In this document: one piece after another, positions 11,061-33,434 of the stretch | Layout: each line of letters starts with the position of its first letter | How positions within the stretch are numbered: position 1 is the first letter of the stretch | Assembly (NCBI RefSeq): GCF_900215575.1 | Contig: NZ_OBEJ01000003.1 | Coordinates: 248,001-312,000 of the forward strand | DNA from: Natronoarchaeum philippinense | GTDB lineage: Archaea > Halobacteriota > Halobacteria > Halobacteriales > Natronoarchaeaceae | Reading direction: 5' to 3' | Length of the DNA: 64,000 nucleotides | The notes under the pieces: generated by a model | What the model was told of the DNA's origin: nothing | Database searches by the model: none | What the model saw: only the letters and a program-made list of their open reading frames with translations | Made by a program: the position numbers and the translations under genes

Positions 11061-11151
11061 GGAATGAGAGAGAACCTTCGCTATCATAAATCTCCCGCCG
11101 GATCGCTCGTGAGGGTAAAACGTTAAAGGCGAATAGAACTGATTAGAGCGT
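11061..11151. promoter_or_regulatory. divergent promoter between xacE-like and xacF-like genes
   Basis: Ninety-one bases contain two back-to-back promoters. TTTATGATAG (minus strand, around 11086) lies about 26 bases from the xacE-like ATG. TTAAA at 11122-11126 lies about 28 bases from the xacF-like GTG. Both transcripts are probably leaderless. The GTCYA-N7-TGGAC operator seen elsewhere in the island is absent here. Confidence 0.6.
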
Positions 11152-12591: not shown

Positions 12592-12727
12592 ACGCGGAGC
12601 CGTCCGGTCGAGGGAGCGGGCCGGCGTGATCCCGTTCCGGCGCCGCGCCGCCCGCTCCACCTGCCCGTTCCGACGCTCCGCTCGATTCCACGTAACGACT
12701 ATTACGCCGGCCCGAGACGGTTCCAGC

Positions 12728-13810: not shown

Positions 13811-13907
13811 GGGCCGCCGCCGTCGTCTCGCGTTCTCGTCCCGCGCCGTCCTCGTCACGCGTCGGTCGGTGGACAGTTTTATTATCCGCTCCGCGGAACA
13901 TCGGGCC

Positions 13908-16527: not shown

Positions 16528-17289
16528 TCAGTAGTGTTTGGTCTTGAGCTCGACCACGTTGGCGGTGTTCTGGAGCGCCGGGAGGAACTCCTCTTGGATG
16601 CGATCGTCGTCGAACTCGTGTTTCGGCCCCGCCACGGAGATCGCGGCGCCGGCCGTCTCGCCGTTGCTCTCGATCGGGACGGCGACCGACCTGACCCCCT
16701 TGACGCGCTCTTCGTCCTCCACGGCGTACCCTTGGGATCTGACGGATTCGATCTCGCCGAGCAGCTCGTCTTGATCGACGATCGTGTGTTCCGTCGCCCG
16801 CGGGAGCCCGTGACGGTCCGCGATCGCCCGGACCTCCGCGTCGGATTTCTGTGCCAGTATCGCTTTGCCCAGCGCCGTCCAGTGCATCTGGGTGTACTCG
16901 CCCGTCGGCGCGTTGTTGAACACGGCTCCCGTCGGCTCCGTCCGATACAGCATCACCCGGTAGCCGTCCTCCTCGTAGCCGATGGTGGCGACTTCGCTCG
17001 TCGTCTGGGCCAGCTCGTCGACCTCGCTGCGCCCCTCTTGGTAGAGGCTCATGTTGTGTCGGGCCCGGCCGCCGATATTCAGAAACCGGAGACTGAGGTG
17101 GTACTCGCCGTCCCGGTTGATGACGTATCCGATGTCCTCCAGCGTTTTGAGGTAGACGTGGGCCGTGCTCTTCGGGAGGTCCATGTGCTCGGCGAGCTCG
17201 CGGACCCCACACCGTTCGAGTTCCCCCACGCTCTCGATGATCTCGAAGACGTTTTCGACCGCTTGGATTCGATTTGGGTCGTCTGTCAT
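16528..17289 (-). CDS. IclR-family transcriptional regulator
   Basis: About 253 residues from the ATG at 17289 (MTDDPNRIQAVENVFEIIES). A winged-helix domain (10-70, with VRELAEHMDLPKSTAHVYLK as recognition region) precedes the IclR effector domain, ending in VPIESNGETAGAAISVAGP. Haloferax XacR, which controls pentose genes, is of this family. It probably senses a sugar-acid intermediate of the surrounding island. A TATA-like AATTAATAATGG (minus strand) near 17372-17388 and an operator-like palindrome at 17334-17350 just past the expected transcript start suggest autoregulation with a short leader. Confidence 0.88.
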   Translation of the reverse strand: MTDDPNRIQAVENVFEIIESVGELERCGVRELAEHMDLPKSTAHVYLKTLEDIGYVINRDGEYHLSLRFLNIGGRARHNMSLYQEGRSEVDELAQTTSEVATIGYEEDGYRVMLYRTEPTGAVFNNAPTGEYTQMHWTALGKAILAQKSDAEVRAIADRHGLPRATEHTIVDQDELLGEIESVRSQGYAVEDEERVKGVRSVAVPIESNGETAGAAISVAGPKHEFDDDRIQEEFLPALQNTANVVELKTKHY

Positions 17290-17522: not shown

Positions 17523-18485
17523 TTACTGTTCGGTCCGTTCCATCAGTCCCCGCATGTACCCGATCGCAAAGAGCCGCCCCTTCGTGTGGTAGCCCGGATT
17601 CGAGTTGTCTTCTCCGACCATCGTCGGGACGTGGTCGGGGCGCATCACCACGTCGTCATCGACGGCCTCTTGGTAGGCCTCCATCGCCGCGAGCATGTCG
17701 TTGGGGCCCTCGTCGTGCCACGTCTCGACGAAGTTGTCGGCGTCGCCCTCGACGTCGCGGAAGTGGACGAAGTTGATGCGGTCGCCGAACCGTCGGATCG
17801 TCTCCGGCAGATCGACGCCCATCGCGGCGAAGTTGCCTTGGCAGAACGTGATCCCGTTGTGTTCGCTGTCGTAGCAATCGAGAACGCGCTGGTACGCCTC
17901 GGGGCTGTTGACGATGCGCGGGACGCCGCCGAGCGACTCCCGAGGGGGATCATCAGGATGGAGGCCGAGTTTCACCCCGGCCTCCTCCGCGACAGGCGTC
18001 ACTTCTTGGAGGAAGTACTCTAGGGCCTCCCAGATTTGCTCGCGAGAAGCGTCGACCGCCTGCTCGGCTCCGTCCCTATGCATCCGATCGTCGGAGTATG
18101 CGGTCACTAGCGATCCACCGCGCGCCTCGACGTGCGCCTCGGTTCGCGCCCAGCGGATGCCGACCATCCAGTCGTAACAGACGACCGGGATGTCGAGCTC
18201 CCCGCAGTGCCTGATAAACTCCTTGAACTCCTCGATGTCCTCGTCGCGACCCTCCAGTCCAAGCCTGACGCGGTCGGTCAGCGGGACGCTCCCCTCGATG
18301 ACGCTGACGTCGAGCCCGGCGTCCTCGTACCAGTTCTTCGTGTGCAACAGGTCGTGGTACGACCAAGACGTTTTGCCGTCACCGATCTCCAAGGTGTGAA
18401 CGACGGCGTTGGTCACGCCCATCTGTTTGGCGAGCTGCCATCTGTCGTCCGGCTGTGGCGGTAAGACTACCGCTAAGTCGACCAT
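17523..18485 (-). CDS. uxuA: mannonate dehydratase
   Basis: About 320 residues from the ATG at 18485 (MVDLAVVLPPQPDD). A TIM-barrel protein of the UxuA family with KLGLHPDDPP, GITFCQGNFAAMG and NFVHFRDVEG carrying the metal ligands (His, Cys, His, Asp). It dehydrates D-mannonate to 2-keto-3-deoxygluconate in glucuronate breakdown. The divergent SDR at 18639 could be the fructuronate reductase that makes mannonate. The in-frame upstream ATG at 18551 gives an unlikely 22-residue extension. 2-keto-3-deoxygluconate kinase and aldolase genes are not in this window. Confidence 0.88.
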   Translation of the reverse strand: MVDLAVVLPPQPDDRWQLAKQMGVTNAVVHTLEIGDGKTSWSYHDLLHTKNWYEDAGLDVSVIEGSVPLTDRVRLGLEGRDEDIEEFKEFIRHCGELDIPVVCYDWMVGIRWARTEAHVEARGGSLVTAYSDDRMHRDGAEQAVDASREQIWEALEYFLQEVTPVAEEAGVKLGLHPDDPPRESLGGVPRIVNSPEAYQRVLDCYDSEHNGITFCQGNFAAMGVDLPETIRRFGDRINFVHFRDVEGDADNFVETWHDEGPNDMLAAMEAYQEAVDDDVVMRPDHVPTMVGEDNSNPGYHTKGRLFAIGYMRGLMERTEQ

Positions 18486-18638: not shown

Positions 18639-19427
18639 ATGAGCGAGACGTTCGACGGAGAGACTGCCATCGTCACGGGTGCATCGAGAGGGATCGGCAG
18701 CGGGATCGCGATCAAACTCGCGGAGCAGGGGGCATCGGTGATCGTCAACTACCGCTCTTCCGAACGGCGAGCGGAATCGGTCGTCGACGAGATCGTGGAC
18801 CGCGGGGGAGAAGCCGTCGCGGTGCAGGCCGACGTGAGCGATCGCGACGACGTGGCGGCGATGGTCGAGGCGACCGTCGATCGCTTCGGCTCGCTGGACG
18901 TGATGGTGAACAACGCGGGGATGACGACGCTGGGTCCGGCCGAAGAGATCGACGTCGAGGACTGGCGGCGGGTGATCGACGTGGACCTGACGGGCGTGTT
19001 CATCGGGTGTCAGGCGGCGGGCCGGCAGATGCAGTCCCAAGCCGACGGCGGGGCGATCGTCAACGTCTCGTCGATGATGGGCGAGATGGGGTTTCACATG
19101 CGGGCGCCGTACTGTGCGGCGAAGGCGGGCGTGATCAATCTCACCCGAACCCTCGCCGTCGAGTGGGCGGAGGACGATATCAGCGTGAACGCGCTCGCGC
19201 CGGGGTTCATCCAGACCGACATCACGGACCAGACGCAGGATTCGGCCGGATACACCGACGACGACATCCGTCGACGCACGCCGATGGCGCGGTACGGCAC
19301 CGTCGAGGAGATGGCCAACTGCGTGAGCTTCCTAGCACGCGGGGACACGTACGTCACGGGCGAGGTGCTTCGGGCCGACGGCGGATGGACGTCCGACGCT
19401 TGGCGATACCACGAAGATCGCGCGTGA
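18639..19427 (+). CDS. SDR-family oxidoreductase, candidate uronate/aldonate reductase
   Basis: Two hundred sixty-two residues: GASRGIGSG cofactor loop (about 15-23), NNAG, catalytic VSSMMGEMG serine, YCAAK pair, and C-terminal GEVLRADGGW. It diverges from the mannonate dehydratase, sharing a 153-base promoter region, so a role as NAD(P)H-dependent fructuronate reductase is the most economical inference. A 2-keto-3-deoxyaldonate dehydrogenase is the main alternative, given the downstream FAA hydrolase and lactate oxidation genes. Confidence 0.78.
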   Translation: MSETFDGETAIVTGASRGIGSGIAIKLAEQGASVIVNYRSSERRAESVVDEIVDRGGEAVAVQADVSDRDDVAAMVEATVDRFGSLDVMVNNAGMTTLGPAEEIDVEDWRRVIDVDLTGVFIGCQAAGRQMQSQADGGAIVNVSSMMGEMGFHMRAPYCAAKAGVINLTRTLAVEWAEDDISVNALAPGFIQTDITDQTQDSAGYTDDDIRRRTPMARYGTVEEMANCVSFLARGDTYVTGEVLRADGGWTSDAWRYHEDRA

Positions 19428-19520: not shown

Positions 19521-20543
19521 ATGTCAAATGGGTCATCCGTTGTTAGCAGACGCTCGCTGATCAAGGGTATCGGTACGGGCGCTATCGCAGCGACCGCCGG
19601 CTGTTCCGGCCTCACGGGAGGCGGCGGCGGTGGCGGTGGCGTCGACATGACGATCGCCAGTACGTTCGAGCCGGGACACATCTTAGTCCAGACCTCCGAG
19701 ATGTTCAAGGAGAACATCGAGGAAGAGTCGGACGGCGATATTTCCGTCCAAATCAGCGCCGGCGGTGCCTACGGCTCTGAAGACGAGACCGGCGAGATCG
19801 TCAGCCAAGGCGGCGTCGAGGCTCACGCCGCGGGTAGCTTCCCGTACTTCCAGTTCGCGCCCGAGTACTGGTTCTTCGGGTGCCCGTTCGTTCTCTCGAG
19901 CTACGACCAGCTGCTGTCGGTCTTGGAGAGTGACCAGATGCAGGAGGCACACGACGCGCTCGTCGAGAGCGGGAATCAACGCCCCATCGGCCAGCAGATC
20001 TACCGCGGTGCGCGCCACTTCACCTCGAACTCGCCGATCCGCGGCCCGAGCGACGTCGATGGACTCAACCTGCGCCTGCCGGAGCTCGACCCGTGGGTCG
20101 CCATCTGGGAGCAGGTCGGTGCCTCGCCGACCCCGATTGCGCTGGACGAGCTGTACAGCGCGCTCGAACAGGGGACGGCGGACGCATCGGAGGGCGGCGC
20201 GGAGCAGATCAGCGCGTTCAACCTCCACGAGGTCCAGAGCCACCTGAGCCTGACGGGCCACCTGATCGCGAACGGGAACATCTACATCAACGACGACTTC
20301 TACCAGGGGCTCGACGAGACCCACCAAGACATGATCATGGAGGTCGGCCAGTCGGTGACGGAGACCGCCTCGGAGGAATCCCAGTCGAGCGAGGAGGACC
20401 TGATTCAGGAGCTGGGCGAGCAGGGTATGACGATCGTCGAGGATGTCGACACCGAAGCGTTCCAGGAGCAGGCGGCACCGGCAGTCGAGCAACTGTTCGA
20501 AAACACGTGGGCCTTCGACTGGGAAACCGTCCGGAATATGTGA
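19521..20543 (+). CDS. TRAP transporter substrate-binding lipoprotein (DctP family)
   Basis: Three hundred forty residues. The N-terminus has a twin-arginine pair (Arg10-Arg11, SRRSLIKGIGTGAI) and a lipobox ending at Cys28, then a poly-glycine linker, so it is Tat-exported and lipid-anchored. The mature part is a DctP fold; NLRLPELDPWVAIWEQVGAS contains the substrate-carboxylate-binding region, and ALDELYSALEQGTADASEGG is the family signature. TRAP systems import organic acids with a Na+ or H+ gradient; uronates or aldonates fit the context. A TATA-like TTTTATATAA lies about 30 bases upstream. Confidence 0.92.
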   Translation: MSNGSSVVSRRSLIKGIGTGAIAATAGCSGLTGGGGGGGGVDMTIASTFEPGHILVQTSEMFKENIEEESDGDISVQISAGGAYGSEDETGEIVSQGGVEAHAAGSFPYFQFAPEYWFFGCPFVLSSYDQLLSVLESDQMQEAHDALVESGNQRPIGQQIYRGARHFTSNSPIRGPSDVDGLNLRLPELDPWVAIWEQVGASPTPIALDELYSALEQGTADASEGGAEQISAFNLHEVQSHLSLTGHLIANGNIYINDDFYQGLDETHQDMIMEVGQSVTETASEESQSSEEDLIQELGEQGMTIVEDVDTEAFQEQAAPAVEQLFENTWAFDWETVRNM

Positions 20544-20594
20544 CCGGTAGATCCGTAAAGATGATTAGGTGAGCTAGATACTGTTTCACTTACA

Positions 20595-21161
20595 ATGGAA
20601 ATCGATCAATCACTCGACCTGAAGCGGGATCACCTCCTGGACAGGATCATCCTCTACAGCGCGACGGCGCTGTTTACGTCGACGATCGTCCTGACCACGC
20701 TTCAGGTGTTCATTCGGCTGTTGAACCTGCCCACGTTCGGCTTCCTTCACTGGACCCAGCCGGCGGCGCGGTTCGTGCTCGTCATCGCGACGTATCTGGG
20801 TGCTGCCGTCGCCATTCGGAACAACGAGCAGATCGCGATCCAGTTCCTGCTCGAACGGCTCGCGAACTGGAAGCCGTGGCTCGGCTACTTGGTGAAAGTG
20901 CTCGGAAAACTGGTTACCGCCGGCTTCCTGCTCGTCGCCCTCGAAGGGACGGTCATCACGACCATCGATGACTGGGCGACGTCGATCGGTGGAATCGGAT
21001 TCGTCACGTCCGGTCATCTCTACCTCGGGATCGGCATCGGCCTCGCGCTGATGCTGCTCTACACCGCGATCGACCTCGTGGCGCTCGTACGAGAGATCCT
21101 GGCGTGGACGGGCGACGAAACCAGCGGTAGCCAGCTCGAGGAGGGGATGGCCGATGAGTGA
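20595..21161 (+). CDS. TRAP transporter small membrane subunit (DctQ family)
   Basis: One hundred eighty-eight residues with four membrane segments, the usual DctQ topology: 20-42, 55-77, about 92-118 and 132-155. It follows the binding protein by 51 bases and overlaps the large subunit start by 8 bases (ATGAGTGA), so the two membrane subunits are translationally coupled. Confidence 0.9.
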   Translation: MEIDQSLDLKRDHLLDRIILYSATALFTSTIVLTTLQVFIRLLNLPTFGFLHWTQPAARFVLVIATYLGAAVAIRNNEQIAIQFLLERLANWKPWLGYLVKVLGKLVTAGFLLVALEGTVITTIDDWATSIGGIGFVTSGHLYLGIGIGLALMLLYTAIDLVALVREILAWTGDETSGSQLEEGMADE

Positions 21162-22458
21162 GGTGCTCATTATCGGCACTCTGTTCCTCGGGACGCTCTT
21201 GGTCCTGTACGCGCTCGGCGTCTCCGTTGGGATCGCCATGGGCGCCACCTGCGTCATCGTGATGCTATCTCCGTTCGGGCGCGGACTCAACCCCGGGCTG
21301 ATCGCTCAACAGCTGCTCTACGGGCTCAACAGCTTCACGCTGCTCGCCATCCCGTTCTACCTGCTGCTGGGACGGTTGATGAACCGCATCGGGATGACAC
21401 AGCGCATCTTCTCGCTGGCGAACTCACTCGTCGGGCAGTTCCGCGGGGGGATCGCCCACGTCAACATCGTCGCGAGCATGATCTTCTCGGGGATGTCCGG
21501 CCTCGCGGTCGCCGACGCCGCGGGACTCGGTCGCGTCGAGTACACCGCGATGCGCGACCAGGGGTACGAGAAAGACATCTCGCTGGGCGTCACCGGATCG
21601 TCCGCGATCATCGGCCCGATCATCCCGCCGAGCGTGCCGATCATCATCTACGCCGTGCTGGCCGAAGAGTCGATCGGCGAGCTGTTCCTCGGCGGGATCA
21701 TCCCCGGGATCCTCATCGGTATCTTCCTGATGGCGCTCGTCTTCCTGATCGTGCACCTGCGGGGGTACGAGTCCGAGGATTCCTTCGATCTGGGGGATTG
21801 CTGGAAGAGCTTGAAGGAGGCGGTATTCCCGCTGTTTGCCCCGATACTCATCGTCGGCGGCATCCTCTCGGGTATTTTCACCGCCACCGAAGCGGGGGCC
21901 ATCGCGGTCGTCTACACCATCTTCCTCGGGATGTTCGTCTACGACGAACTCTCCCTCCGGGGGCTGTTCGAGGAGCTCCAGTACGGGATGGTCGAGACGT
22001 TCTCGCTGACGTTCATCGTCGGCGTGGCGTCGCTGTACGGCCTCGTCGCGCTCCAGCTGCAGCTGCCGATCCTGATGGCCGAGTCGATCACGAACTTCTC
22101 GGGCGATCCCACGATCGTGATCCTGCTGCTGGTCGGGCTCCTGCTTGTCGTCGGGACGTTCATGGAGACCATCGCCGCGATCACGATCCTCGTTCCGATT
22201 TTCATGCCGATCCTGGAGATTACCGGAATCGATCCGCTCCACTTCGGCATCGTGATGATCCTGACGCTGATGCTGGGTCTGCTGACGCCGCCGTTCGGCG
22301 TCATCCTCTTTGTCCTAGAGAAGGTGACCGACGCGACGCTGGAAGAGGCGATGAAGGCAGTCTTGCCCTACTACGTGCCGATCCTCTTGGTGTTGCTGAT
22401 CACCATCTTCGTCCCGGAGGTCGTCACGTACCCGGTGACCGAACTGATGGGCGGCTGA
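21154..22458 (+). CDS. TRAP transporter large membrane subunit (DctM family)
   Basis: Four hundred thirty-four residues, about twelve membrane segments. Family marks include the early AIPFYLLLGRLMNRIGMTQR, the GMSGLAVADAAGLG and SSAIIGPIIPPSVPIIIYAV segments that form the transport site, and the second-half LTPPFGVILF. It completes the DctPQM transporter encoded from 19521. Confidence 0.93.
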   Translation: MSEVLIIGTLFLGTLLVLYALGVSVGIAMGATCVIVMLSPFGRGLNPGLIAQQLLYGLNSFTLLAIPFYLLLGRLMNRIGMTQRIFSLANSLVGQFRGGIAHVNIVASMIFSGMSGLAVADAAGLGRVEYTAMRDQGYEKDISLGVTGSSAIIGPIIPPSVPIIIYAVLAEESIGELFLGGIIPGILIGIFLMALVFLIVHLRGYESEDSFDLGDCWKSLKEAVFPLFAPILIVGGILSGIFTATEAGAIAVVYTIFLGMFVYDELSLRGLFEELQYGMVETFSLTFIVGVASLYGLVALQLQLPILMAESITNFSGDPTIVILLLVGLLLVVGTFMETIAAITILVPIFMPILEITGIDPLHFGIVMILTLMLGLLTPPFGVILFVLEKVTDATLEEAMKAVLPYYVPILLVLLITIFVPEVVTYPVTELMGG

Positions 22459-22538: not shown

Positions 22539-23726
22539 GTGAGAACGTTTGAGGGCTACCCGCGGGACGACGGCCCCGCCGGTGTACGAAACTACGTGGC
22601 AGTGATACCGACGTCGGTCACGGCGTCGCCGGTCGCGGCGGAGATCGCCGATCGATCGGCCGAGACCGTCCGAGCGACGCCGCACCAGATGGGGACCGAT
22701 CCGCCGGCGGCGGCTCGCGATCAGGTCGAGCGAACGCTGACGGGCGTCGGCAGCAACCCCAACGTCGGCGCGGCGCTGGTCGTCGATCTCGGCACGGAGG
22801 CGATCGACGCTGACGATATCGCCGACGCGGTGGCGGCGACCGGGCGCGGCGCGGCGACGCTCTCGATCCGCGAGGCGGGCGGGACGGCGGCCGCAGTCGA
22901 GGAGGGAACGGAACTGGCCCGCTCCCTTCGCGAGGAGATCTCCGGCGCGCGCCGGGAGGAACGCGGCGCGGACGAACTAGTCTTCGCCGTCGAGTGCGGC
23001 GGCTCCGACGCGACGAGCGGGATCGCCGCCAACCCGGCCGTCGGGGCGGCCTGCGACCGCTTGGTCCGAGACGGCGGCACGGCGACGTTCTCCGAGACGC
23101 CGGAGTTCATCGGCGCCGAGCACGTCTTGGCCGAGCGGTGCGCGGACGAGGGCGTCAGAGAGCGACTCCTCGATCGCGTCGAGCGCCGGGAGGCCACGGC
23201 CGAACTGATGGGCGTGGACCTGCGAGGCGCGCAGCCGAGCCCCGGCAACCAAGAAGGCGGTCTGACGACCATCGAGGAGAAGAGCCTCGGCGCCATCTCG
23301 AAGGGCGGGACGACCCCGGTCCGCGGCATCGTCGACTACGCCGAGCGGCTCCCGACCGGGGGTGGGTTGGTGCTGATGGACACGCCGGGGTACGACATCG
23401 AGAGCGTCGTCGGCAAGGTCGCCGGCGGTGCGCAGGTCGTCGCCTTCACGACCGGGCGGGGATCAACGACCGGGAACCCGCTGGCACCCGTGATCAAGGT
23501 GACGGGGAACCCGAAGACGGCGGACCGCCTCGCCGCGAACGTCGACGTCGACGCGAGCGACGTGATCGACGGCGAGTCGATCGACGCCGTCGGCGAGCGG
23601 ATCTACGAGACGCTGCTCGCGGTTGCCGGCGGCGAGCGGACCGCGGCGGAGCGCCACCGTCTGGAGGAGTTCGCCGTCAACGAACTCCAGCCGAACGAAC
23701 TCGCGGAGTTGCGGGGTGACGCATGA
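22539..23726 (+). CDS. UxaA/GarD-family large subunit, paralogue A (C-terminal motifs retained)
   Basis: Three hundred ninety-five residues of the altronate/galactarate dehydratase family without the SAF domain. The C-terminal half is canonical: CGGSDATSG (153-161), SETPEFIGAEH, SPGNQEGGLTTIEEKSLG (234-251), DTPGYD and TTGRGS. The N-terminal half has lost its signatures: HQMGTD (49-54) stands where the family has HGTGCG, and DLGTE (83-87) where it has GLGCE. The paralogue at 24037 shows the opposite loss. The GTG start is at 22539, and the stop overlaps the SAF gene by 4 bases (ATGA). Probably one part of a hetero-oligomeric altronate or related acid dehydratase. Confidence 0.82.
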   Translation: MRTFEGYPRDDGPAGVRNYVAVIPTSVTASPVAAEIADRSAETVRATPHQMGTDPPAAARDQVERTLTGVGSNPNVGAALVVDLGTEAIDADDIADAVAATGRGAATLSIREAGGTAAAVEEGTELARSLREEISGARREERGADELVFAVECGGSDATSGIAANPAVGAACDRLVRDGGTATFSETPEFIGAEHVLAERCADEGVRERLLDRVERREATAELMGVDLRGAQPSPGNQEGGLTTIEEKSLGAISKGGTTPVRGIVDYAERLPTGGGLVLMDTPGYDIESVVGKVAGGAQVVAFTTGRGSTTGNPLAPVIKVTGNPKTADRLAANVDVDASDVIDGESIDAVGERIYETLLAVAGGERTAAERHRLEEFAVNELQPNELAELRGDA

Positions 23727-24037
23727 AGGGGACGGTCCTCGGCGACGCGGGGCTGTACATGACGGCCCGGGACAACGTCGTCACGGCTATCGACGACTTG
23801 GAGGCCGGCACGGAAATCCCGCACGACGGCGTGACGGTCGAACTCGCGGAGGCGGTCCCGTTCGGCCACAAGATCGCGCTGGTGGCGATGGAACCCGGTG
23901 ACGCCGTCGTGAAGTACGGCGAGACGATCGGGGAGGCCGTCGAGCCGATCGCTCCCGGCGAGTGGGTGCACACGCACAACTGCGAGAGCAGGCGCGGCCG
24001 AGGCGACCGCGCCGTAGGCGACGGGGAGGTGGCCTGA
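23723..24037 (+). CDS. SAF-domain small subunit of UxaA-like dehydratase
   Basis: One hundred four residues: TARDNVVTAIDDLEAG, then AVPFGHKIALVAMEPGDAVV, KYGETIGEAVEPI and VHTHN. This is the SAF domain that forms the N-terminus of UxaA/GarD or the separate small subunit of split enzymes. It lies between and overlaps both large-subunit paralogues (ATGA at the front, TGATG at the back), so the three are made together. A similar small subunit occurs in sulfolactate sulfo-lyase (SuyA), the main functional alternative. Confidence 0.87.
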   Translation: MKGTVLGDAGLYMTARDNVVTAIDDLEAGTEIPHDGVTVELAEAVPFGHKIALVAMEPGDAVVKYGETIGEAVEPIAPGEWVHTHNCESRRGRGDRAVGDGEVA

Positions 24038-25302: not shown

Positions 25303-25422
25303 ATGACACTGTTTGAACACGGTTCGGTAGCGGGTCGGCAGCAGACGGCCCGAACGCCCGGCTGCGACGGGCCGGAACGAACCGACGGCACTGCTTGGAG
25401 CACCTCGGAGGCGCCGGCATGA
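25303..25422 (+). CDS. 39-codon leader ORF coupled to the alcohol dehydrogenase
   Basis: The ATG at 25303 lies about 30 bases after AAAGAATAATAC, a good TATA position for a leaderless start. It encodes MTLFEHGSVAGRQQTARTPG and continues to a TGA (25420-25422) overlapping the dehydrogenase ATG (25419). No family is recognisable. It may be a coupling or regulatory leader peptide. Confidence 0.4.
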   Translation: MTLFEHGSVAGRQQTARTPGCDGPERTDGTAWSTSEAPA

Positions 25423-26444
25423 GAGCGGCGCCGCTCGTCAAGGCGGGAACGTTCGAGCCGGAAACCAGGGAGCGCCCGACGCCGGGGCCGTCGGAGGTGC
25501 TCGTCGAAGTGAGTGACGTGGGCATCTGCGGCTCTGACGTCCACTGGTACGAGCACGGCGAGATGGGCGACCGGGTCGTCGAGGACCCGCTGGTGCTCGG
25601 CCACGAGAGCGCCGGGACGGTCGTGGAAGTCGGCGCGGAGGTCGACGACCACGCTGTCGGCGACGCCGTGACGATCGAGCCCGGCGTTCCCTGCGGCGAG
25701 TGCGAGCACTGCCGGCGTGGAGCGTACAACCTCTGTCGGGCGGTCGAGTTCATGGCGACGCCCGGTACCGATGGCGCGTTTCGGGAGTACGTCGCTTGGC
25801 CCGCGGAGTACGTGTACGGTCTCCCGGCGTCCGTCTCTCCCCGCGAGGGGGCGCTCTGCGAGCCGATAAGCGTCGGCGTCCACGCCGTTCGGCGCGCCGA
25901 GGTTGGAATGGGCGATTCGGTGCTCGTCATGGGTGCGGGCCCAATCGGACTCCTCGCCGCCGACGTGGCACGGGCGGCCGGAGCCGCAAACGTGGCCGTC
26001 GTCGACGTCGTCGACTCGAAGCTCGACCGGGCTCTCGACCGCGGCGCAGACCTCGCGATCGACAGCCGCGAGACGAACCCCGCCACGGCGGTCCGCGACG
26101 AGTTCGGCGCGGGCGTCGACGCCGCGATCGAGGCCACCGGAGCGCCGCCCGCGATCGAGGCGGTGCTCGACACGCCCGGGCCGGACGGCACCGCGGTGCT
26201 GGTCGGCCTCGCGCCCGACGCCGAGGTGCCGGTGGACACGTTCGAACTGGTCCGGCGGCAGGTCGACGTGCGGGGGAGCTACCGATTCGCCAACACGTAC
26301 CCGACGGCGATTTCCCTGCTCGCGAGCGGTGACGTGGACGCGGCCGGAATCGTCGACTTCGACCTGCCGCTCGACCGGATCGGCGACGCGTTCGAGCGGG
26401 CCACGGAGCCCGACGTGGTCAAGGGCATGATCTCGACGGACTGA
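25419..26444 (+). CDS. zinc-dependent medium-chain dehydrogenase (sorbitol/threonine dehydrogenase type)
   Basis: Three hundred forty-one residues from MRAAPLVKAG. Catalytic zinc ligands sit in GICGSDVHWYEHG and LGHESAG; the structural zinc is bound by the four cysteines of CGECEHCRRGAYNLC; CEPISVGVHAV holds the conserved Glu; and GAGPIGLLAADVARAAGA is the Rossmann loop. It oxidises a secondary alcohol of a polyol or sugar acid with NAD(P). In this island it may act on an aldonate or on a keto-deoxy acid. It starts within the stop of a 39-codon ORF (ATGA). Confidence 0.87.
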   Translation: MRAAPLVKAGTFEPETRERPTPGPSEVLVEVSDVGICGSDVHWYEHGEMGDRVVEDPLVLGHESAGTVVEVGAEVDDHAVGDAVTIEPGVPCGECEHCRRGAYNLCRAVEFMATPGTDGAFREYVAWPAEYVYGLPASVSPREGALCEPISVGVHAVRRAEVGMGDSVLVMGAGPIGLLAADVARAAGAANVAVVDVVDSKLDRALDRGADLAIDSRETNPATAVRDEFGAGVDAAIEATGAPPAIEAVLDTPGPDGTAVLVGLAPDAEVPVDTFELVRRQVDVRGSYRFANTYPTAISLLASGDVDAAGIVDFDLPLDRIGDAFERATEPDVVKGMISTD

Positions 26445-26504
26445 CCGGGAACTCGACGGATACGCGGCCGAAGATTTATGTTCAAACGGACACCGTGTTT
26501 CGGC

Positions 26505-26933
26505 ATGGTAATCGTCGCAGCTATCAGCGGATCCGAGCAGTCGATGGAGATCGCCGCGCAGGCGGACGAGCTCGCGCGGGCGTTCGACGACGAACTCCAC
26601 CTCGTCCACGTCGTCGAGGAGACCGAGTACACGCGGCTGGTCGAAAAGCAGTCCGGCGCGCGCGAGACGGATTCGGGATCCGTCGAGGAAAACGCCGCCA
26701 CCGCGGCGATGGAGGGGGTCGACGAGATTGTCGATGCCGACTACGAGATCGTCGGCCGCGTCGGGAATCCGAGCAAGACGGTTCTCGACTACGCGGACGA
26801 GGTCGACGCCCGGTACGTCGTCGTCGGGGGCCGGTCCCGTTCCCCGACGGGGAAGGCGTTGTTCGGCAGCGTCACTCAGTCGATCCTCCTGAAGACGGAA
26901 CGTCCCGTCGTGACCATCACGGAGACGAAGTAG
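26505..26933 (+). CDS. universal stress protein (UspA family)
   Basis: One hundred forty-two residues. The fold is given by MVIVAAISGSEQSMEIAAQA, the central DARYVVVGGRSRSPTGKALF and GSVTQSILLKTERPVVTI; the G-2x-G-9x-G(S/T) nucleotide-binding pattern is only partly kept. The ATG at 26505 lies about 27 bases past ATTTATG, so an upstream ATG at 26478 is within the promoter. Stress proteins are often embedded in haloarchaeal catabolic clusters. Confidence 0.82.
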   Translation: MVIVAAISGSEQSMEIAAQADELARAFDDELHLVHVVEETEYTRLVEKQSGARETDSGSVEENAATAAMEGVDEIVDADYEIVGRVGNPSKTVLDYADEVDARYVVVGGRSRSPTGKALFGSVTQSILLKTERPVVTITETK

Positions 26934-27050: not shown

Positions 27051-27563
27051 ATGAGCACAGGTTCGGTAGAGCAGTTCCAACAGTCGTTGTCGCGTCTAGA
27101 CACCGCGTGGACCGTCGTCTCGCCCGACGATCTGGCGACGACGGTCGCCGACTTGGTCGATCCCCCCGCGGTCGGAGCCGAACTGCCGTTCGACGATCTC
27201 TCGCTCGCCGAGACGCCGGTCACCCTCGGCCCGTCGCCCGCACAGCTCAGGGACGCGGTGACGGGCGTGACGGGATCGCGTATGGGTATCGCCTCGCTGG
27301 GGACGGTCGCCGTCGAGTTCCGAAAAGAGGGCGACGAGTTCGTCGCGCTGTACCCCGAACGACACGTGGTAGTGATCAAAGCGAGCGACCTTCGGTCGGA
27401 CCTCGGGGACGCCTTCGGCTGGATCCGGCGGGAGTTCGAGGCCGATCGACAGTCGTTCATCCTCGCGACGGGACCGAGTTCGACCGGCGACATGGGCGCA
27501 CTCGTACAGGGTGTCCACGGACCCGAACAGGTCCACATCGTCATCGTCAGGGACAATGAGTGA
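27051..27563 (+). CDS. lutC: LutC-like LUD-domain protein
   Basis: One hundred seventy residues with the LUD/LutC pattern: a variable N-terminus, then TGSRMGIASLGTVAVEFRKE, DEFVALYPERHVVVIKASDL, and the C-terminal ILATGPSSTGDMGALVQGVH plus GPEQVHIVIV. It is part of the iron-sulfur L-lactate dehydrogenase LutABC, which oxidises L-lactate to pyruvate. The stop overlaps the start of the LutB-LutA fusion by 8 bases. Confidence 0.87.
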   Translation: MSTGSVEQFQQSLSRLDTAWTVVSPDDLATTVADLVDPPAVGAELPFDDLSLAETPVTLGPSPAQLRDAVTGVTGSRMGIASLGTVAVEFRKEGDEFVALYPERHVVVIKASDLRSDLGDAFGWIRREFEADRQSFILATGPSSTGDMGALVQGVHGPEQVHIVIVRDNE

Positions 27564-29769
27564 ATCAGAACAACTGGATGCCGACCGCATCCGCACGCTA
27601 CTCGAATCGGAGGGTGACGAGATCAAGGAGAACACGCGCCTGTTCAACGCCGAACGGTACGACGCGGTGGAGGCCGTCGGTGAGGACGAACATGAGGACA
27701 ACCGGTCCCGAGCACGGGAAATAAAGGAGGACGCGATCGAGCGTCTCCCGGAACTCATCGAACGGACCAGAGAGGCCGTTGAGGCGAACGGCGGGACGGT
27801 GTACGTCGCCGACGACGCCGCCGATGCGAACCGATACGTTCGCGAGGTCGCGGCCGACGCCGACGCCGACAGCGTCGTGAAATCGAAGTCGATGACGACC
27901 GAGGAGATCGACCTGAACGAGGCGCTGGAGGCCGACGACCTCGATGTCTGGGAGACCGACCTCGGCGAGTTCGTCGTCCAGGTCGCCGAGGAAGCGCCGT
28001 CGCACATCGTCGGCCCGTCGCTCCACAAGTCCCGCGAGGATATCACGGAGCTGTTCGAACGGGAGTTCGACCCGGAAGAGTCGCTCGACTCCGCGGAGAA
28101 GCTGACGGCGTTCGCACGGGAGTACCTCGGCGGGCGCATCGACGACGCGGACGTCGGCATCACGGGCGCGAACTTCGTCATGGCCGACAGCGGGTCGATA
28201 GCGCTGGTGACGAACGAGGGCAACGCCCGCAAGTGCGCGTCGATCCCCGACACGCACGTCGCCGTCGCCGGAATCGAGAAGATCATCCCCTCGGTCACCG
28301 AGCTGGAGCCGTTCGCGGAGCTCATCTCGCGGTCTGCGACGGGGCAGGAGATCCCGCAGTACCTGTCGCTGCTGACGCCGCCGGTCGACACGCCCGCGAT
28401 CGACTTCGACAGCGAGGACGAGCCGAACTTCGGGAACAGCGACGCGGACAGGGAGTTCCACTTGGTGCTCCTCGACAACGGCCGGCGGGCGATGCGCGAG
28501 GACGACGATCTCCGCGAGACGCTGTACTGCATCCGCTGTGGCGCCTGCGCGAACTCATGTGCGAACTTCCAGTCGGTCGGCGGCCACGCCTTCGGCGGCG
28601 AGACGTACACGGGCGGTATCGCCACCGGCTGGGAGGCCGGGATCGAGGGCAACGACGTGGCGGCGGAGTTCAACGACCTCTGTACCGGCTGTTCCCGCTG
28701 CGTGAACGCCTGTCCGGTGAAGATCGACATCCCGTGGATCAACACGGTCGTCCGGGATCGCATTAATCGCGGGAAGGATCCCGGCTTCGACGACATGCTC
28801 GTCGACGGGTTGATCCCTGATGAAGAGGAGAGCGGGACGCCGCTCCGGAAGCGCTTCTTCGGGAACTTCGAGACGATGGCGAAAATCGGGAGCGTGACCG
28901 CGCCGCTCTCGAACGCCGTCGCCTCGACCGGCCTCGCGCGGACGGCGATGGAGTCCGTGCTGGGCGTCGACGCCCGACGCGATCTGCCCGAGTTCGAGCG
29001 CACGACGTTCCGCGACTGGGCCGGGAGCCGCGAGTCCCGCGTCGAGGAGCCCGCCCGTCGCGTCGCGCTGTATCCGGACGTGTACACGAACTACGTGCAG
29101 ACCGAGCGCGGCAAGGCCGCTGTCCGCGTGCTGGAGGCGCTCGGCTGCGACGTCGTCGTCCCCGACGTCGGCGGTTCGGGGCGCGCGCCGCTGTCCCAAG
29201 GGATGATCGCGACGGCCGAACGGAAGGCCGAAGCCGTCGCCGAATCGCTCGACCCGTACGTCGAGGACGGGTACGACGTGGTCGTCGTCGAACCCAGCGA
29301 CCTCGCGATGTTTCGCCGCGAGTACGAAAAACTGCTCCCCGCGGAGGATCACGAGCGACTCGACGAGGGGAGCTACGAGATTCTAGAGTACGTGTTCGGC
29401 CTGCTGGAGAACGGCGCAGACGCCGACGCCTTGCCCGCGGGTGACGGTGACGGCGTCGCGTACCACAGCCACTGCCAGCAGCGAACGCTCGGCCTAGAAG
29501 CGTACACCGAGACGGTGCTGGAGCGGCTGGGGTACGACGTGTTCACCTCCGACGTCGAGTGCTGCGGGATGGCGGGGAGCTTCGGGTACAAAACCGAGTA
29601 CTACGACCTGAGCATGGACGTCGGCGCGACGCTGGCCGACCAGTTCGAGGCGGTCGCCGACGAGCGGACGGTCGTCGCCAGCGGCACCTCCTGTATGGAG
29701 CAACTCGACTCGCTGCTATCGCCGGGGACGCGTCACCCCATCGAACTTCTCGATCCCGCTGGCCGATAG
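27556..29769 (+). CDS. LutB-LutA fusion, iron-sulfur L-lactate oxidation subunit
   Basis: Seven hundred thirty-seven residues from the ATG at 27556. Residues 1-330 are LutB: a LUD domain (MADSGSIALVTNEGNARKCA) and two 4Fe-4S motifs, CIRCGACANSCANF and CTGCSRCVNACPVKI. The C-terminal part (about 490-735) resembles LutA/GlpC: YHSHCQQRTLG and SDVECCGMAGSFG form a complete CCG-type motif. The first CCG repeat of two-repeat LutA appears degraded to VPDVGGSGRAP. With LutC it would oxidise lactate, which points to a pathway releasing L-lactate, such as the diketo-hydrolase route for deoxysugars. Confidence 0.85.
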   Translation: MSESEQLDADRIRTLLESEGDEIKENTRLFNAERYDAVEAVGEDEHEDNRSRAREIKEDAIERLPELIERTREAVEANGGTVYVADDAADANRYVREVAADADADSVVKSKSMTTEEIDLNEALEADDLDVWETDLGEFVVQVAEEAPSHIVGPSLHKSREDITELFEREFDPEESLDSAEKLTAFAREYLGGRIDDADVGITGANFVMADSGSIALVTNEGNARKCASIPDTHVAVAGIEKIIPSVTELEPFAELISRSATGQEIPQYLSLLTPPVDTPAIDFDSEDEPNFGNSDADREFHLVLLDNGRRAMREDDDLRETLYCIRCGACANSCANFQSVGGHAFGGETYTGGIATGWEAGIEGNDVAAEFNDLCTGCSRCVNACPVKIDIPWINTVVRDRINRGKDPGFDDMLVDGLIPDEEESGTPLRKRFFGNFETMAKIGSVTAPLSNAVASTGLARTAMESVLGVDARRDLPEFERTTFRDWAGSRESRVEEPARRVALYPDVYTNYVQTERGKAAVRVLEALGCDVVVPDVGGSGRAPLSQGMIATAERKAEAVAESLDPYVEDGYDVVVVEPSDLAMFRREYEKLLPAEDHERLDEGSYEILEYVFGLLENGADADALPAGDGDGVAYHSHCQQRTLGLEAYTETVLERLGYDVFTSDVECCGMAGSFGYKTEYYDLSMDVGATLADQFEAVADERTVVASGTSCMEQLDSLLSPGTRHPIELLDPAGR

Positions 29770-29863
29770 TCTCCCGAGGCCGTCCGCAGGTAGTCCCGGC
29801 AATCGGGGGATCGTCTACCTCGGGTAACTTCTTTATATCGAGGATCCGATAGCCGAATGTACC

Positions 29864-30958
29864 ATGACCCGGAAGTCTACGGATACGATACGCACAGTCG
29901 ACACCGACCTCTACCGCGTGCCGAACGAGCAGGTCCTCGAGGATGCGACGCAGTCGTTCGACACGCTGGAGATCGTCTCGGTCACCGTGGAGTCGGAGGG
30001 CGCTCGGCGCGGATTCGGATTCACCTACACGATCGGCCGCGGCGGCGCTGCGATCAAGCGCTTCCTCGACGACGAACTCGTCCCGCTACTGGAGGGCCAG
30101 CCGGTCTCCCCCCGTAGGGTGCGGTCGAACTTGCGGGGGAACACGACGTTTGTCGGGCGCGAGGGGATAAGCGAGTTCGCCCTCGCTGCGGTCGACATCG
30201 CGGTCTGGGATCTCCTCGGGAAGATCGCCGGGCTCCCGTTGTGCGAACTCCTCGGCGGGGCTCGACAGGACGTGCCGATGTACGAGACCGATGGTGGCTG
30301 GCTCCAGTACGACGCGGACACACTCGTCGAGAACGCGAAGGGGATCGCCGAGGACGGGTTCGCGGGCATGAAGATGAAGGTGGGATCGTCGGTCGATCGC
30401 GATGTCACGCGCGTGCGTGCCGTTCGGGACGCGCTTCCAGCCGACCTAGACCTGATGCTCGACGCCAACTGCTCGTACACGGTGCCGGAGGCGCGTGACC
30501 TAGCCGGCCGACTCGACGATGCGGCGATAACTTGGCTGGAGGAACCGCTTCCCAAGGGCGACTACACGTCGTACGCCGACCTCCGCGAGCGCATCGACAT
30601 CCCGATCGCCACCGGCGAGAACTTCTACAACGAGACGCAGTTCCGGCAGGTGATCGACCGCAACGCCGTCGATTACCTGCAGCCCGACGTCTGCCGGGTC
30701 GGCGGGATCTCGCCGTGGGTGAACGTCGCCGAACAGGCGGCGGCGACTGGACTCGCCCTGTCGCCGCACTACATCGAGCCGCTCCACGCCCACCTCGCGT
30801 GTGCCTTCGACAACGTCCCGTACATCGAACACCACTCAACCGTGTTGGACGAACTACTCGCCGATCCCGTCGCGGTCGAGGATGGTGAGATACTCCCGCC
30901 CGACCGTCCTGGACACGGGATGGCTTTCGAGGGTGCGGACGCGTACCGGGTAAACTGA
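29864..30958 (+). CDS. enolase-superfamily sugar-acid dehydratase (mandelate racemase group)
   Basis: Three hundred sixty-four residues. Barrel residues are Lys170 and Lys172 in GMKMKVG, metal ligands Asp200 (LDANCSY), Glu226 (WLEEPLP) and Glu252 (ATGENF), and His302 in SPHYIEP. The capping segment GFGFTYTIGRGG resembles L-talarate/galactarate dehydratase-like proteins, but active-site loops alone do not fix the substrate. It is distinct from the XacD-like enzyme at 13908, which has FKIHGW at the base position. Candidates are galactarate, rhamnonate or fuconate. TTTATATCG lies about 30 bases upstream. Confidence 0.82.
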   Translation: MTRKSTDTIRTVDTDLYRVPNEQVLEDATQSFDTLEIVSVTVESEGARRGFGFTYTIGRGGAAIKRFLDDELVPLLEGQPVSPRRVRSNLRGNTTFVGREGISEFALAAVDIAVWDLLGKIAGLPLCELLGGARQDVPMYETDGGWLQYDADTLVENAKGIAEDGFAGMKMKVGSSVDRDVTRVRAVRDALPADLDLMLDANCSYTVPEARDLAGRLDDAAITWLEEPLPKGDYTSYADLRERIDIPIATGENFYNETQFRQVIDRNAVDYLQPDVCRVGGISPWVNVAEQAAATGLALSPHYIEPLHAHLACAFDNVPYIEHHSTVLDELLADPVAVEDGEILPPDRPGHGMAFEGADAYRVN

Positions 30959-31000
30959 TCTCCGCCGTCCGCGCGACCTCGTCGGCGGCCGCGAACCGGC

Positions 31001-31017
31001 GTCCATCCATCGTGGAC
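31001..31017. promoter_or_regulatory. operator copy A2 (GTCYA-N7-TGGAC)
   Basis: GTCCATCCATCGTGGAC, with symmetry extending to GCGTCCA/TGGACGC arms. It differs from A1 (15343) at only three of 17 positions, all in the spacer. Confidence 0.65.
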
Positions 31018-31057
31018 GCAATTCAGGGGCGCCAGTCGTAGATCGGCGACCGATGAA

Positions 31058-31077
31058 TTACAATCTTATGTCTGTAA
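31058..31077. promoter_or_regulatory. palindrome copy C2 (TTACA-N10-TGTAA)
   Basis: TTACA and TGTAA arms around a 10-base spacer, starting exactly 57 bases after A2, as C1 does after A1. Flanking bases A and A are also shared. Confidence 0.6.
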
Positions 31078-31167
31078 ATCCACGGCGGTTCTCGGGTATC
31101 TTAATGAATGATAATAAAATACTCTGCGTCCGACTCGTCAATCTGCCCTTCACTGAATTCCAACGGT

Positions 31168-31184
31168 GTCTATTTTTGTTGGAC
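31168..31184. promoter_or_regulatory. operator copy B2 (GTCYA-N7-TGGAC)
   Basis: GTCTATTTTTGTTGGAC, extended by GT on the left and AC on the right. B1 has GC and GC in those places, so the outer pair changes on both sides and symmetry is kept. Confidence 0.65.
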
Positions 31185-31204
31185 ACGCTCCGTTTGCGCC
31201 CCGG

Positions 31205-31451
31205 AGACGCACCCGGCCGGTCGAACGAGAACACCGGTTTGCAGGTCTCGGAGTACAGGAACGCCTCGAACGCCGCCATCGGTGTGCATGCCGGTGATCG
31301 AGAAGTTCTTGCAGACGTTCGACCCGTTCTTGCACTGAAAACAGTCGCCGCAGCGGCGGATCGGTTCCTTGATCTCCTTGTCGACGACCGAGAGACCATC
31401 GACCTCTTCGCCGATTGCGGCGACGGTCCCGGCGTACTCGTGACCCATCAC
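31205..31451 (-). pseudogene. remnant of a zinc alcohol dehydrogenase
   Basis: Read leftward from 31451: [20 protein letters not shown], then IRRCGDCFQCKNGSNVCKNF and SITGMHTDGG, which is the structural-zinc region of a medium-chain dehydrogenase. The first 60 or so residues, with the catalytic Cys, are missing. After HTDGG the frame changes, and AFEAFLYSETCKPVFSFD, which looks like an enzyme C-terminus, follows directly, so about 200 residues have been deleted. It is not a copy of the intact gene at 25419, since the cysteine region differs. Confidence 0.7.
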
Positions 31452-31507
31452 TCGCGGGGTGCGTAACCACCAGAATACTTATACCGGTCGGGATGAACCC
31501 TCCTCGT

Positions 31508-32239
31508 ATGCGACGAGTTCGATTCAGCGACCCAGCCGGGAGCGTCAGAGCTGGAATCTGGACCGAGAATGGCATCGAGTTCGGTGGACGGACGTACGAC
31601 CCCGAGACGGTCGACGTGCGCTCCCCGGTCAAGCCGAGTAAGATCGTGTGCGTCGGTCTCAACTACGCCGACCACGCCGAAGAAGAGGGCATGGAGCTGC
31701 CCGATCGACCGATGCTCTTTTTGAAACCTCCGAACACGGTGTCCGGTCACGGCGACGAGATCCCGCTTCCACCGGGCAAAGAATCGGTGGAGTACGAGGC
31801 CGAACTCGGCGTCGTCATCGGCGAGCAGTGCCGCAACGTTCCGGAGGATGAGGCGATGTCAGTCGTCGACGGGTTCACCTGTCTCAACGACGTGTCGAAC
31901 CGCGACGACCAGCGCGTCGAGCAGAACTGGGTCCGCGGGAAGGCGTTCGACAACGCCGCGCCGATAGGACCGGTCGTGGCGACACCCGACGAGGTCCCCG
32001 AGGACGCCGACGTCGAACTGCGTGTCAACGGCGAAGTACGACAGAGTTCGAGTCGCGACCAATTCATCTTCTCGGTCGAGGAACTGATCGCGGAGATCAC
32101 CGCGTACATGACGCTGGAACCGGGCGACGTGATATCGACCGGAACCCCCGCCGGCGTCGGTCCGCTCTCCGACGGCGACATCGTCGAGGTCGAGGTCGAG
32201 GGCGTCGGCGTCCTAGAAAACGAGTTCGCAAGTCGGTAG
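31508..32239 (+). CDS. FAA-hydrolase family enzyme, candidate 2,4-diketo-3-deoxyaldonate hydrolase
   Basis: About 243 residues from [10 protein letters not shown] at 31508, about 28 bases past CTTATACC. It has [20 protein letters not shown], the metal-ligand run [11 protein letters not shown], and [20 protein letters not shown] near the end, all classic for FAHD1/2-keto-4-pentenoate hydratase-like enzymes. In the archaeal rhamnose diketo-hydrolase pathway such an enzyme splits 2,4-diketo-3-deoxy-L-rhamnonate into pyruvate and L-lactate. The Lut genes and dehydrogenases here fit that role, which remains an inference. An acylpyruvate hydrolase is the alternative. Confidence 0.8.
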
Positions 32240-32336: not shown

Positions 32337-33434
32337 ATGACCTATCGAGCGGGGATAATCGGCACCGGCGGAATCGCCGGAATGGGAATTCTCGGGATGC
32401 ACGACGAGGACGCCATCGGACAAGAGAAGATACGCGCCAGCCACGCGGGCGGGTACGACGCCACGCCGGGCGTCGATCTCGTCGCGGTCGCCGACGTCGA
32501 CGAGGCGAACCTCCGTCGGTTCGGCGAGGCGTGGGAGATTCCGGCCGAGCGCCGCTACGACGGCCACGAGGCGATGCTGGCCGAGGAGGACCTAGACGCG
32601 GTGTCGGTGTGCACGCCGTCGTTCCTGCACCGCGACCACGTCGTCGACGCCGCGCGGTCCGCGGCCGCTCCCGACGTCATCTGGTGCGAGAAGCCGATCG
32701 CCTCCGGCGTGTCCGACGCCGAGGAGATGATCGAGGCGTGCGACGACGCCGACGCGGAGCTGCTTGTCAACCACTCCTTCCGGTTCACGGACAAGCTGCA
32801 GCGACTCCACGCGCTGATACAGGAGGACGACCTCTTGGGCGAGGTCCACTCGGTGTCGAGCCAGTTCAGGATGGAACTGCTCCGGAACTCGACTCACCTG
32901 CTCGACATGCTTGTCTATCTGTTAGACGCGCGGGCAGATCGGGTCTCCGGGTACATCTCGGGGGAAAACGAGGCGGTCGATTCGCTCGAAGCGGACAGGG
33001 ACGTCGACGACGCCGCTGGCGGGGGGTACGTCCTGCTGGATGACGGAACCTTCGCCACGATCGACTGCACCATCCCGCGAGACGATTCGTCGATGGCCCT
33101 CTCGTTCGTGGGGAGTGAAGGCAAACTGTACCTGAACAACGACGACGGCGAGTGGCGCTACTGGTCGCTTGAGGACGGGGAGCACGTCGAGGAGCCGCTG
33201 CCCGGCATCGAGGACGCGTGGACGTGGGACGACGACTACGAATCGGCCTTCGAGAACGCCGCCAACCACGTCTTCGACCTGCTCGACGGCGAGGCGACGA
33301 ACCGCTCGCCGGGAAGGGAGGCGCTCCGATCGCTCGAGATCATCGTCGGGTTCTACATCTCCCACTACACGAGCGGTGACGTTTCGATCCCGCTCGACAG
33401 GCCGCTTCGCGACGTGACGATCACGTCTTGGTGA
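32337..33434 (+). CDS. Gfo/Idh/MocA-family oxidoreductase
   Basis: Three hundred sixty-five residues. The cofactor-binding loop is IIGTGGIAGMG (about 7-17), the EKP motif is in VIWCEKPIASGVSDAEEM, and NHSFRFTDKLQRL and NSTHLLDMLVYLLDA form the active-site side. It is only distantly like the XacA-like enzyme at 12728, so a different sugar or inositol-type substrate is likely. It ends the island; the ATG lies about 30 bases after AAGTTTAATG. Confidence 0.8.
   Translation: MTYRAGIIGTGGIAGMGILGMHDEDAIGQEKIRASHAGGYDATPGVDLVAVADVDEANLRRFGEAWEIPAERRYDGHEAMLAEEDLDAVSVCTPSFLHRDHVVDAARSAAAPDVIWCEKPIASGVSDAEEMIEACDDADAELLVNHSFRFTDKLQRLHALIQEDDLLGEVHSVSSQFRMELLRNSTHLLDMLVYLLDARADRVSGYISGENEAVDSLEADRDVDDAAGGGYVLLDDGTFATIDCTIPRDDSSMALSFVGSEGKLYLNNDDGEWRYWSLEDGEHVEEPLPGIEDAWTWDDDYESAFENAANHVFDLLDGEATNRSPGREALRSLEIIVGFYISHYTSGDVSIPLDRPLRDVTITSW

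Follow-up and report, generated by a model that had tools for sequence, protein, structure and literature searches.

The lut genes of Natronoarchaeum philippinense discussed here, encoding LutC and a fusion of LutB and LutA (LutBA), lie in a stretch of 64,000 nucleotides (contig 3, NZ_OBEJ01000003.1, positions 248001–312000), which we call the window. They occur in a set of sugar-acid genes whose order is identical in all 12 loci found, and this clustering is not due to chance. Judged from its sequence, the window may hold a self-contained sugar-acid operon that is fed by a TRAP transporter and includes a 2-hydroxyacid dehydrogenase whose substrate is probably L-lactate, a reading to which we assign a probability of about 40%. 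An initial annotation of this DNA had proposed that lactate oxidation is embedded in a sugar cluster, and the conserved gene order bears out the embedding of lut.

The operon comprises genes for an IclR-family regulator and UxuA, divergent from those for an SDR dehydrogenase, the TRAP transporter DctPQM, three UxaA-family proteins (L1, S and L2), a zinc-dependent alcohol dehydrogenase (Zn-ADH), a universal stress protein (Usp), LutC, LutBA and an MR_MLE enzyme. Loci with this unit were found through matches to MR_MLE, lut or UxaA. Eight show the whole order (the window, genomes G062, G046, G070, G029, G057 and G014, and a Natrinema versiforme plasmid) and four show it from DctP on (Natrialba taiwanensis, N. 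asiatica, N. aegyptia and Halobacteriales archaeon YIM A00010); a locus of Halalkalicoccus paucihalophilus was taken as the same record as G057 and left out of the 12. The IclR gene stands at the unit boundary in all eight fully examined loci. The loci span at least two families (f1 and f14), N. versiforme being placed under Natrialbaceae, and the three f14 loci have no common predicted neighbour above 45% identity outside the unit, in a comparison based on simple gene calls of our own, which overlook some genes. The close spacing of the genes from SDR to MR_MLE makes their co-transcription likely. Among the open-licence papers listed in our literature searches, none describes this operon in its title or abstract opening.

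The comparison set consisted of 146 haloarchaeal genomes of the order; the N. philippinense genome (G000, GCF_900215575.1) measures 3.16 Mb in 11 contigs and is 95.7% complete. The lut search gave 135 matches, with at most seven candidates scored per genome, and the other gene searches likewise scored limited numbers of candidates. Window-type lut was found in seven genomes at 84–100% identity, the remaining lut matches reaching at most 75%. The same seven carry window-type MR_MLE (80–100%) and window-type UxaA (81–100%), these three separate searches returning the same genomes at more than 79% identity. A UxaA gene and window-type MR_MLE lie within 6 kb of window-type lut in seven of seven cases; for UxaA within 15 kb the chance expectation is 0.066, where this and all later expectations assume uniform gene placement in a 3.4-Mb genome and related genomes are non-independent. 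A lactate permease occurs within 6 kb of none of the seven unit lut pairs, versus 30 of the 128 other lut places, and within 15 kb of one (G046), whose second lut copy adjoins that permease. Other lut places within 15 kb of a UxaA gene number three of 128 (G107, G073 and G088; 0.25 expected). A rhamnonate-dehydratase-like gene lies within 15 kb of four of the 128 (0.09 expected), in the N. philippinense genome and three others.

Gene sets of similar content occur in other lineages. In Halegenticoccus tardaugens (locus L127) Gfo, MR_MLE, a UxaA trio, lut, TRAP and UxuA genes stand together in another order. Its lut is only 68% identical to the window type, some 9 kb separate MR_MLE from a RhaM-like gene, and the 21-kb stretch yielded no FAA marker. 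Natronococcus CG52 was considered as a counter-example, its best lut match being far from UxaA, but the genome has a different lut pair at a distance of 8 kb from its UxaA trio. There, 33 kb hold lutC-lutBA, two UxuA, TRAP, Usp, the UxaA trio, Gfo, FAA and a lactate-racemase-domain gene, again in another order. A LutBA tree was built by a quick method from 74 selected rows, partial lut copies such as that of G088 being excluded. The unit LutBA form a single clade of eight rows (SH-aLRT 97) adjoining Halobellus limi, and the four UxaA-linked rows outside the unit need three changes, two of them forced by starred branches. This suggests that haloarchaea placed lactate-type oxidation within sugar-acid gene sets more than once.

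Window proteins were assigned to domains and families by Pfam and NCBIfam profile searches, which bore out every gene class that the initial annotation had named. LutBA probably starts at the ATG at 27556, giving an 8-base overlap with lutC. The traits of the Lut family are present, namely LUD domains in LutB and LutC, 4Fe-4S cysteines and a CCG domain. The top NCBIfam model of LutBA is LdhH (L-lactate dehydrogenase (quinone), large subunit), which shares the fusion of LUD, iron-sulphur and CCG parts over 687 matched residues, but the score of 448 bits is under the cut-off of 800. The LutB model gives 340 bits against a cut-off of 445, and since both cut-offs are missed the proteins are labelled Lut-like and not equivalogs. 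No NCBIfam model matched LutC, and no PDB entry matched LutBA at E <= 0.001. LutBA keeps the residues that are invariant in other copies, cluster-type cysteines among them. The unit Lut has retained every cysteine that 65 other haloarchaeal copies share, and L-lactate would therefore be the default substrate. Altered residues were considered and set aside: positions where all eight units agree on one residue and 95% or more of the 65 other copies on a different one number five in LutBA and zero in LutC, and one of the five is a gained cysteine (position 531) while none is a lost one. Elsewhere in the window, a stand-alone LUD-domain protein (50025–50678, minus strand) adjoins a gene that reads as RNA-methyltransferase-like from its sequence.

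The members of the UxaA trio are all annotated as UxaA family in N. versiforme, and L1 matches galactarate dehydratase in the PDB at 178 bits. L1 keeps an ECGGSD motif in 13 of 13 loci and its HGC and GCE motifs are missing; in L2, HGC and GLGCE are retained in all 13 loci and CGGSD is missing. According to an excerpt of PMC6336799 four conserved cysteines of the family are likely iron ligands, and the motifs of L1 and L2 appear to map to these four. The losses are complementary, which suggests one heteromeric dehydratase with a metal site split over two paralogous subunits. The simplest reading suggested by the motifs is that the trio is a single three-part enzyme with a shared metal site, the cysteines apparently divided between two paralogues. 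The same excerpt describes a UxaA-family enzyme that uses D-arabinonate and, weakly, L-fuconate; a heteromeric dehydratase for L-fuconate is assigned there by gene context. Of the 13 UxaA places in genomes other than those with the unit, seven have Gfo within 20 kb (0.15 expected) and at least four have a listed FAA gene within that distance (0.19 expected). For a lactate branch, the trio, near which lut of other lineages is found too, is a more promising dehydratase candidate than the MR_MLE enzyme at 29864.

Table 1. Features of the operon and its downstream tail, in window coordinates.
Feature	Position	Reading frame and start	Strand	Assignment
IclR-family regulator	16528-17289	ORF opens 17490, start uncertain	-	homologue annotated IclR in N. 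versiforme
UxuA, mannonate-dehydratase family	17523-18422	ORF opens 18551, start uncertain	-	Pfam UxuA 2.4e-79
SDR dehydrogenase	18639-19427		+	Pfam adh_short_C2
TRAP transporter DctP, DctQ, DctM	19521-22458		+	Pfam DctP/DctQ/DctM
UxaA trio	L1 22539-23726, S 23723-24037, L2 24037-25173		+	Pfam GD_AH_second/GD_AH_C for L1, L2
Zn-ADH, polyol-dehydrogenase type	25419-26444	ORF from 25395, likely start 25419	+	Pfam ADH_N/ADH_zinc_N
Universal stress protein	26478-26933		+	Pfam Usp
LutC	27051-27563		+	Pfam LUD 2.3e-13
LutB-LutA fusion	27556-29769	ORF from 27511	+	Pfam LUD 1.7e-39, Fer4_8, CCG
MR_MLE (enolase superfamily) enzyme	29864-30958		+	Pfam MR_MLE; KMK 170-172, D275, H302
ADH2 remnant pieces, second Zn-dehydrogenase	30963-31482 approx.		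-	blastn to G062, G046; tblastn with rhamnose-cluster ADH
FAA hydrolase	31508-32239	ORF from 31415, likely ATG 31508	+	Pfam FAA_hydrolase 2.9e-70
Gfo/Idh/MocA oxidoreductase	32337-33434		+	Pfam GFO_IDH_MocA

In the favoured reading the TRAP transporter would import one or more sugar acids. UxuA and the UxaA heteromer, perhaps together with the MR_MLE enzyme, would convert them to 2-keto-3-deoxy acids, with the SDR dehydrogenase and Zn-ADH carrying out redox steps. LutC-LutBA would be the operon's iron-sulphur 2-hydroxyacid dehydrogenase, most likely turning L-lactate into pyruvate. The lactate would come from a 6-deoxy sugar acid, with L-fuconate as a first guess, through dehydration by the UxaA heteromer, oxidation and a split by an FAA hydrolase encoded at this locus or elsewhere in the genome. 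We infer the substrates, lactate as the product and the place of the FAA gene, in cis or elsewhere, from sequence comparison. Several points weigh against this reading. UxuA suits acids other than 6-deoxy ones, as does the MR_MLE enzyme if judged by its closest relatives, and L1 and L2 score under every NCBIfam cut-off. No listed UxaA gene lies within 40 kb of 123 of the 128 other lut places. The lut genes of L127 and CG52 are not among the tree rows, and the link to RhaM rests on a single locus, L127. The unit LutC have a mean identity of 43% to other LutC, versus 50% among the others, so an altered substrate is possible. Near five of the 12 units (G029, G057, G014, N. asiatica and YIM A00010) no FAA marker was found by tblastn on the retrieved stretches, which for YIM A00010 covered only about 6 kb past MR_MLE; the release of lactate by cleavage would thus require, in these units, an FAA hydrolase from elsewhere.

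In the other seven loci (the window, G062, G046, G070, N. versiforme, N. taiwanensis and N. aegyptia) FAA and Gfo genes follow MR_MLE, FAA being inverted in G070. Gfo was likewise not found in the five loci named above. This FAA-Gfo tail is optional, whereas all loci found have lut. A role of the FAA enzyme as the required source of lactate is therefore not supported, and FAA, missing in five of 12 loci, is not what keeps lut there. FAA relatives are present in at least 142 of the 146 genomes, and FAA lies within 3 kb of Gfo in at least eight of 27 Gfo places (0.06 expected), FAA proximity counts being lower bounds throughout. The similarity of N. asiatica to N. taiwanensis ends about 0.4 kb after MR_MLE, and the Natrialba species with the same operon and tail (N. 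taiwanensis, N. aegyptia) or without the tail (N. asiatica) provide a natural test.

The FAA hydrolase carries the HxxE pair (NYADHAEE) that, according to the excerpt of PMC6336799, marks the C-C hydrolase of such routes. It scores 175 bits against the NCBIfam diketo-deoxyrhamnonate hydrolase model (cut-off 500). In the PDB the diketo-deoxyrhamnonate hydrolase is matched at 172 bits, with HpcE-type proteins higher, up to 217; the NCBIfam models did not separate the FAA protein of the window from that of the rhamnose-type cluster described below. A KDX-dehydratase role of the protein at 31508 was set aside, since it has the NYxxHxxE motif, which is missing from the FAA-family protein that the neighbouring xylose-type cluster itself encodes. 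The Gfo protein at 32337 was rejected as a xylose dehydrogenase, as it scores 64 bits with the Gfo6 model (cut-off 350) and no more than 59 bits with any PDB entry. Between MR_MLE and FAA, in antisense, lies a second zinc-dependent dehydrogenase (ADH2). It is full-length in G046 and split into two out-of-register pieces in G062. The window, N. taiwanensis and N. aegyptia retain smaller pieces of it, and in G070 and N. versiforme it was not detected. The ADH2 family lies within 3 kb of a rhamnonate-dehydratase-like gene in seven of eight cases and of a listed FAA gene in at least four of 18 (0.04 expected). The enzyme at 25419 or 18639, which had been proposed as the partner of FAA, is thus not supported in this role, the dehydrogenase beside FAA being from a different Zn-ADH family whose copy in the window is a remnant. 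If the FAA tail is half of a diketo-hydrolase pathway, its own dehydrogenase would be broken here.

A role of the MR_MLE enzyme as rhamnonate or fuconate dehydratase is not supported by its scores. Its best PDB match is 3,6-anhydro-alpha-L-galactonate cycloisomerase (231 bits), followed by an unnamed relative (212), talarate/galactarate dehydratase (196) and mandelate racemase (146), versus 127 bits for L-fuconate and 97 for L-rhamnonate dehydratase. The NCBIfam talarate/galactarate dehydratase model (258 bits, cut-off 500) and the RhamD model (127 bits, cut-off 393) are both missed. The KxK and His-Asp active-site residues, which we take to be the signature of the mandelate-racemase group, are present and do not discriminate between talarate/galactarate dehydratase and the cycloisomerase. 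The enzyme thus appears to resemble the cycloisomerase and talarate/galactarate dehydratase, and we leave its substrate unnamed. UxuA passes the NCBIfam model PRK03906 (241 bits, cut-off 191) and misses TIGR00695 (uxuA; 177 bits, cut-off 200). The SDR dehydrogenase matches FabG best in the PDB (211 bits; glucose 1-dehydrogenase 178), and Zn-ADH matches sorbitol dehydrogenase at 262 bits. PDB comparison of DctP gave no ligand, the named matches binding sialic acid or isethionate and most being unnamed.

A second lut copy lies on the same contig at C3:159-162 kb, about 114 kb away, its LutBA being 67% identical. It belongs to a rhamnose-type cluster (C3:152-169 kb, L054:2080-19038) of lut, RhaM, an Amidohydro_2 protein, FAA, SDR, IclR, Zn-ADH and MR_MLE. 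Four ABC transporter genes and one PEP-synthase-like gene in the cluster were named by reading their translations. The best model of its MR_MLE protein is L-rhamnonate dehydratase (266 bits, under the cut-off of 393). The genes of the predicted diketo-hydrolase route (RhaM, Amidohydro_2, RhamD-like MR_MLE, SDR, FAA, lut) occur together at this site. The whole window has no match to the RhaM or Amidohydro_2 protein of this cluster (tblastn, E <= 1e-3) nor, at the same threshold, to its lactonase or ABC-binding-protein genes, and identity to the rhamnonate-dehydratase-like gene of the cluster is no higher than about 30%. Lactate oxidation within a rhamnose cluster thus appears to fit this genome, but elsewhere than the window. 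The initial gene list was right as far as it went, and left out UxuA, TRAP, the UxaA trio, IclR, the xylose-type cluster and the second lut.

The link between lactate oxidation and rhamnose is already known from excerpts of two sources. The Haloferax volcanii L-rhamnose pathway has LudBC (HVO_1692/1693), and deletion of this lut-like pair impairs growth on rhamnose (PMC8305020); the window differs from that pathway in having no matches to RhaM, lactonase or ABC-binding-protein genes (E <= 1e-3). In some bacteria lldEFG belongs to rhamnose (RhaR) regulons (PMC3870299). The likeness is that lactate dehydrogenase genes stand inside a deoxysugar regulon, whereas the bacterial route is of the aldolase/aldehyde-dehydrogenase type and the excerpt mentions no UxaA, TRAP and MR_MLE set. 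Route III of pentose or L-fucose in Herbaspirillum, Acidovorax and Paraburkholderia (excerpts of PMC6336799 and PMC11199699) shares a UxaA-family dehydratase, a dehydrogenase and an HxxE-type FAA protein with the window, in which UxaA is encoded by three genes, FAA is optional and lut is in the operon. Checked for the L-fucose form, the window has the FAA protein with HxxE and the UxaA trio, and its match to the enolase-type fuconate dehydratase is poor (127 bits).

The strongest competitor of the lactate reading is a hexonate operon, a possibility that we regard as nearly as good as the favoured reading. L-Gulonate, L-galactonate and the like would be turned by Zn-ADH and SDR into mannonate and altronate, and these by UxuA and UxaA into 2-keto-3-deoxygluconate; Lut would handle unrelated lactate occurring with the same plant or algal material. 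The subfamily cut-off that UxuA passes and the polyol/idonate type of Zn-ADH agree with this. Uronate isomerase (UxaC) was not found in six of the seven unit genomes, that of N. philippinense included, which makes the classical hexuronate route unlikely and also favours hexonates. KDPG aldolase (PF01081) is a further point in favour in the four of the seven that have it. Against the hexonate reading, the aldolase was not found in the other three, and the presence of lut in all 12 loci and of lut near UxaA in other lineages would be left unexplained. The pathway of the initial annotation, in which 29864, 25419 or 18639, and 31508 form one rhamnose or fucose diketo-hydrolase route making L-lactate for Lut, has in its favour the enzyme classes in cis, the HxxE motif and the two hydrolase scores of FAA. 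Against it, 29864 scores low as rhamnonate or fuconate dehydratase, the tail is missing from five loci, the ADH family adjoining FAA is a remnant here, and rhamnose-type genes stand elsewhere with their own lut. We consider it improbable.

Lut might also act on another 2-hydroxyacid released by the same split route, either glycolate from pentonates or L-glycerate from hexonates, which we think unlikely. The excerpt of PMC6336799 describes glycolate formation from 2-keto-3-deoxypentonate by a dehydrogenase and an FAA hydrolase. A xylose-type cluster adjoins the operon, and in Halobellus limi a related lut (74%) stands with xylonate-dehydratase-like, KDX-dehydratase-like and FAA genes. Against it, no conserved Lut cysteine is lost, the diagnostic changes are few, and we know of no Lut that acts on glycolate or L-glycerate. 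A bolder form, in which the split-site UxaA heteromer feeds an operon-specific Lut that oxidises a non-lactate, sugar-derived 2-hydroxyacid as an obligatory step, is likewise rather doubtful; if it were true, Lut would become part of sugar-acid chemistry itself.

The xylose-type cluster (10197–15083) consists of the FAA-family gene, an aldehyde dehydrogenase 70% identical to a 2,5-dioxovalerate dehydrogenase, a Gfo6 xylose dehydrogenase (565 bits, over its cut-off) and an MR_MLE gene. In G073 (L057:15340-16659) a nickel-pincer isomerase (group 22), with TRAP and FAA genes nearby, adjoins a D-2-hydroxyacid dehydrogenase, and the lactate-racemase-domain gene of CG52 lies at L202:30172-31509, near lut and UxaA; a hydroxyacid epimerase may be part of such gene sets. 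Near the start of the window, a gene at 3405–4679 encodes a TnpB-family RNA-guided nuclease (203 bits, over the cut-off of 100).

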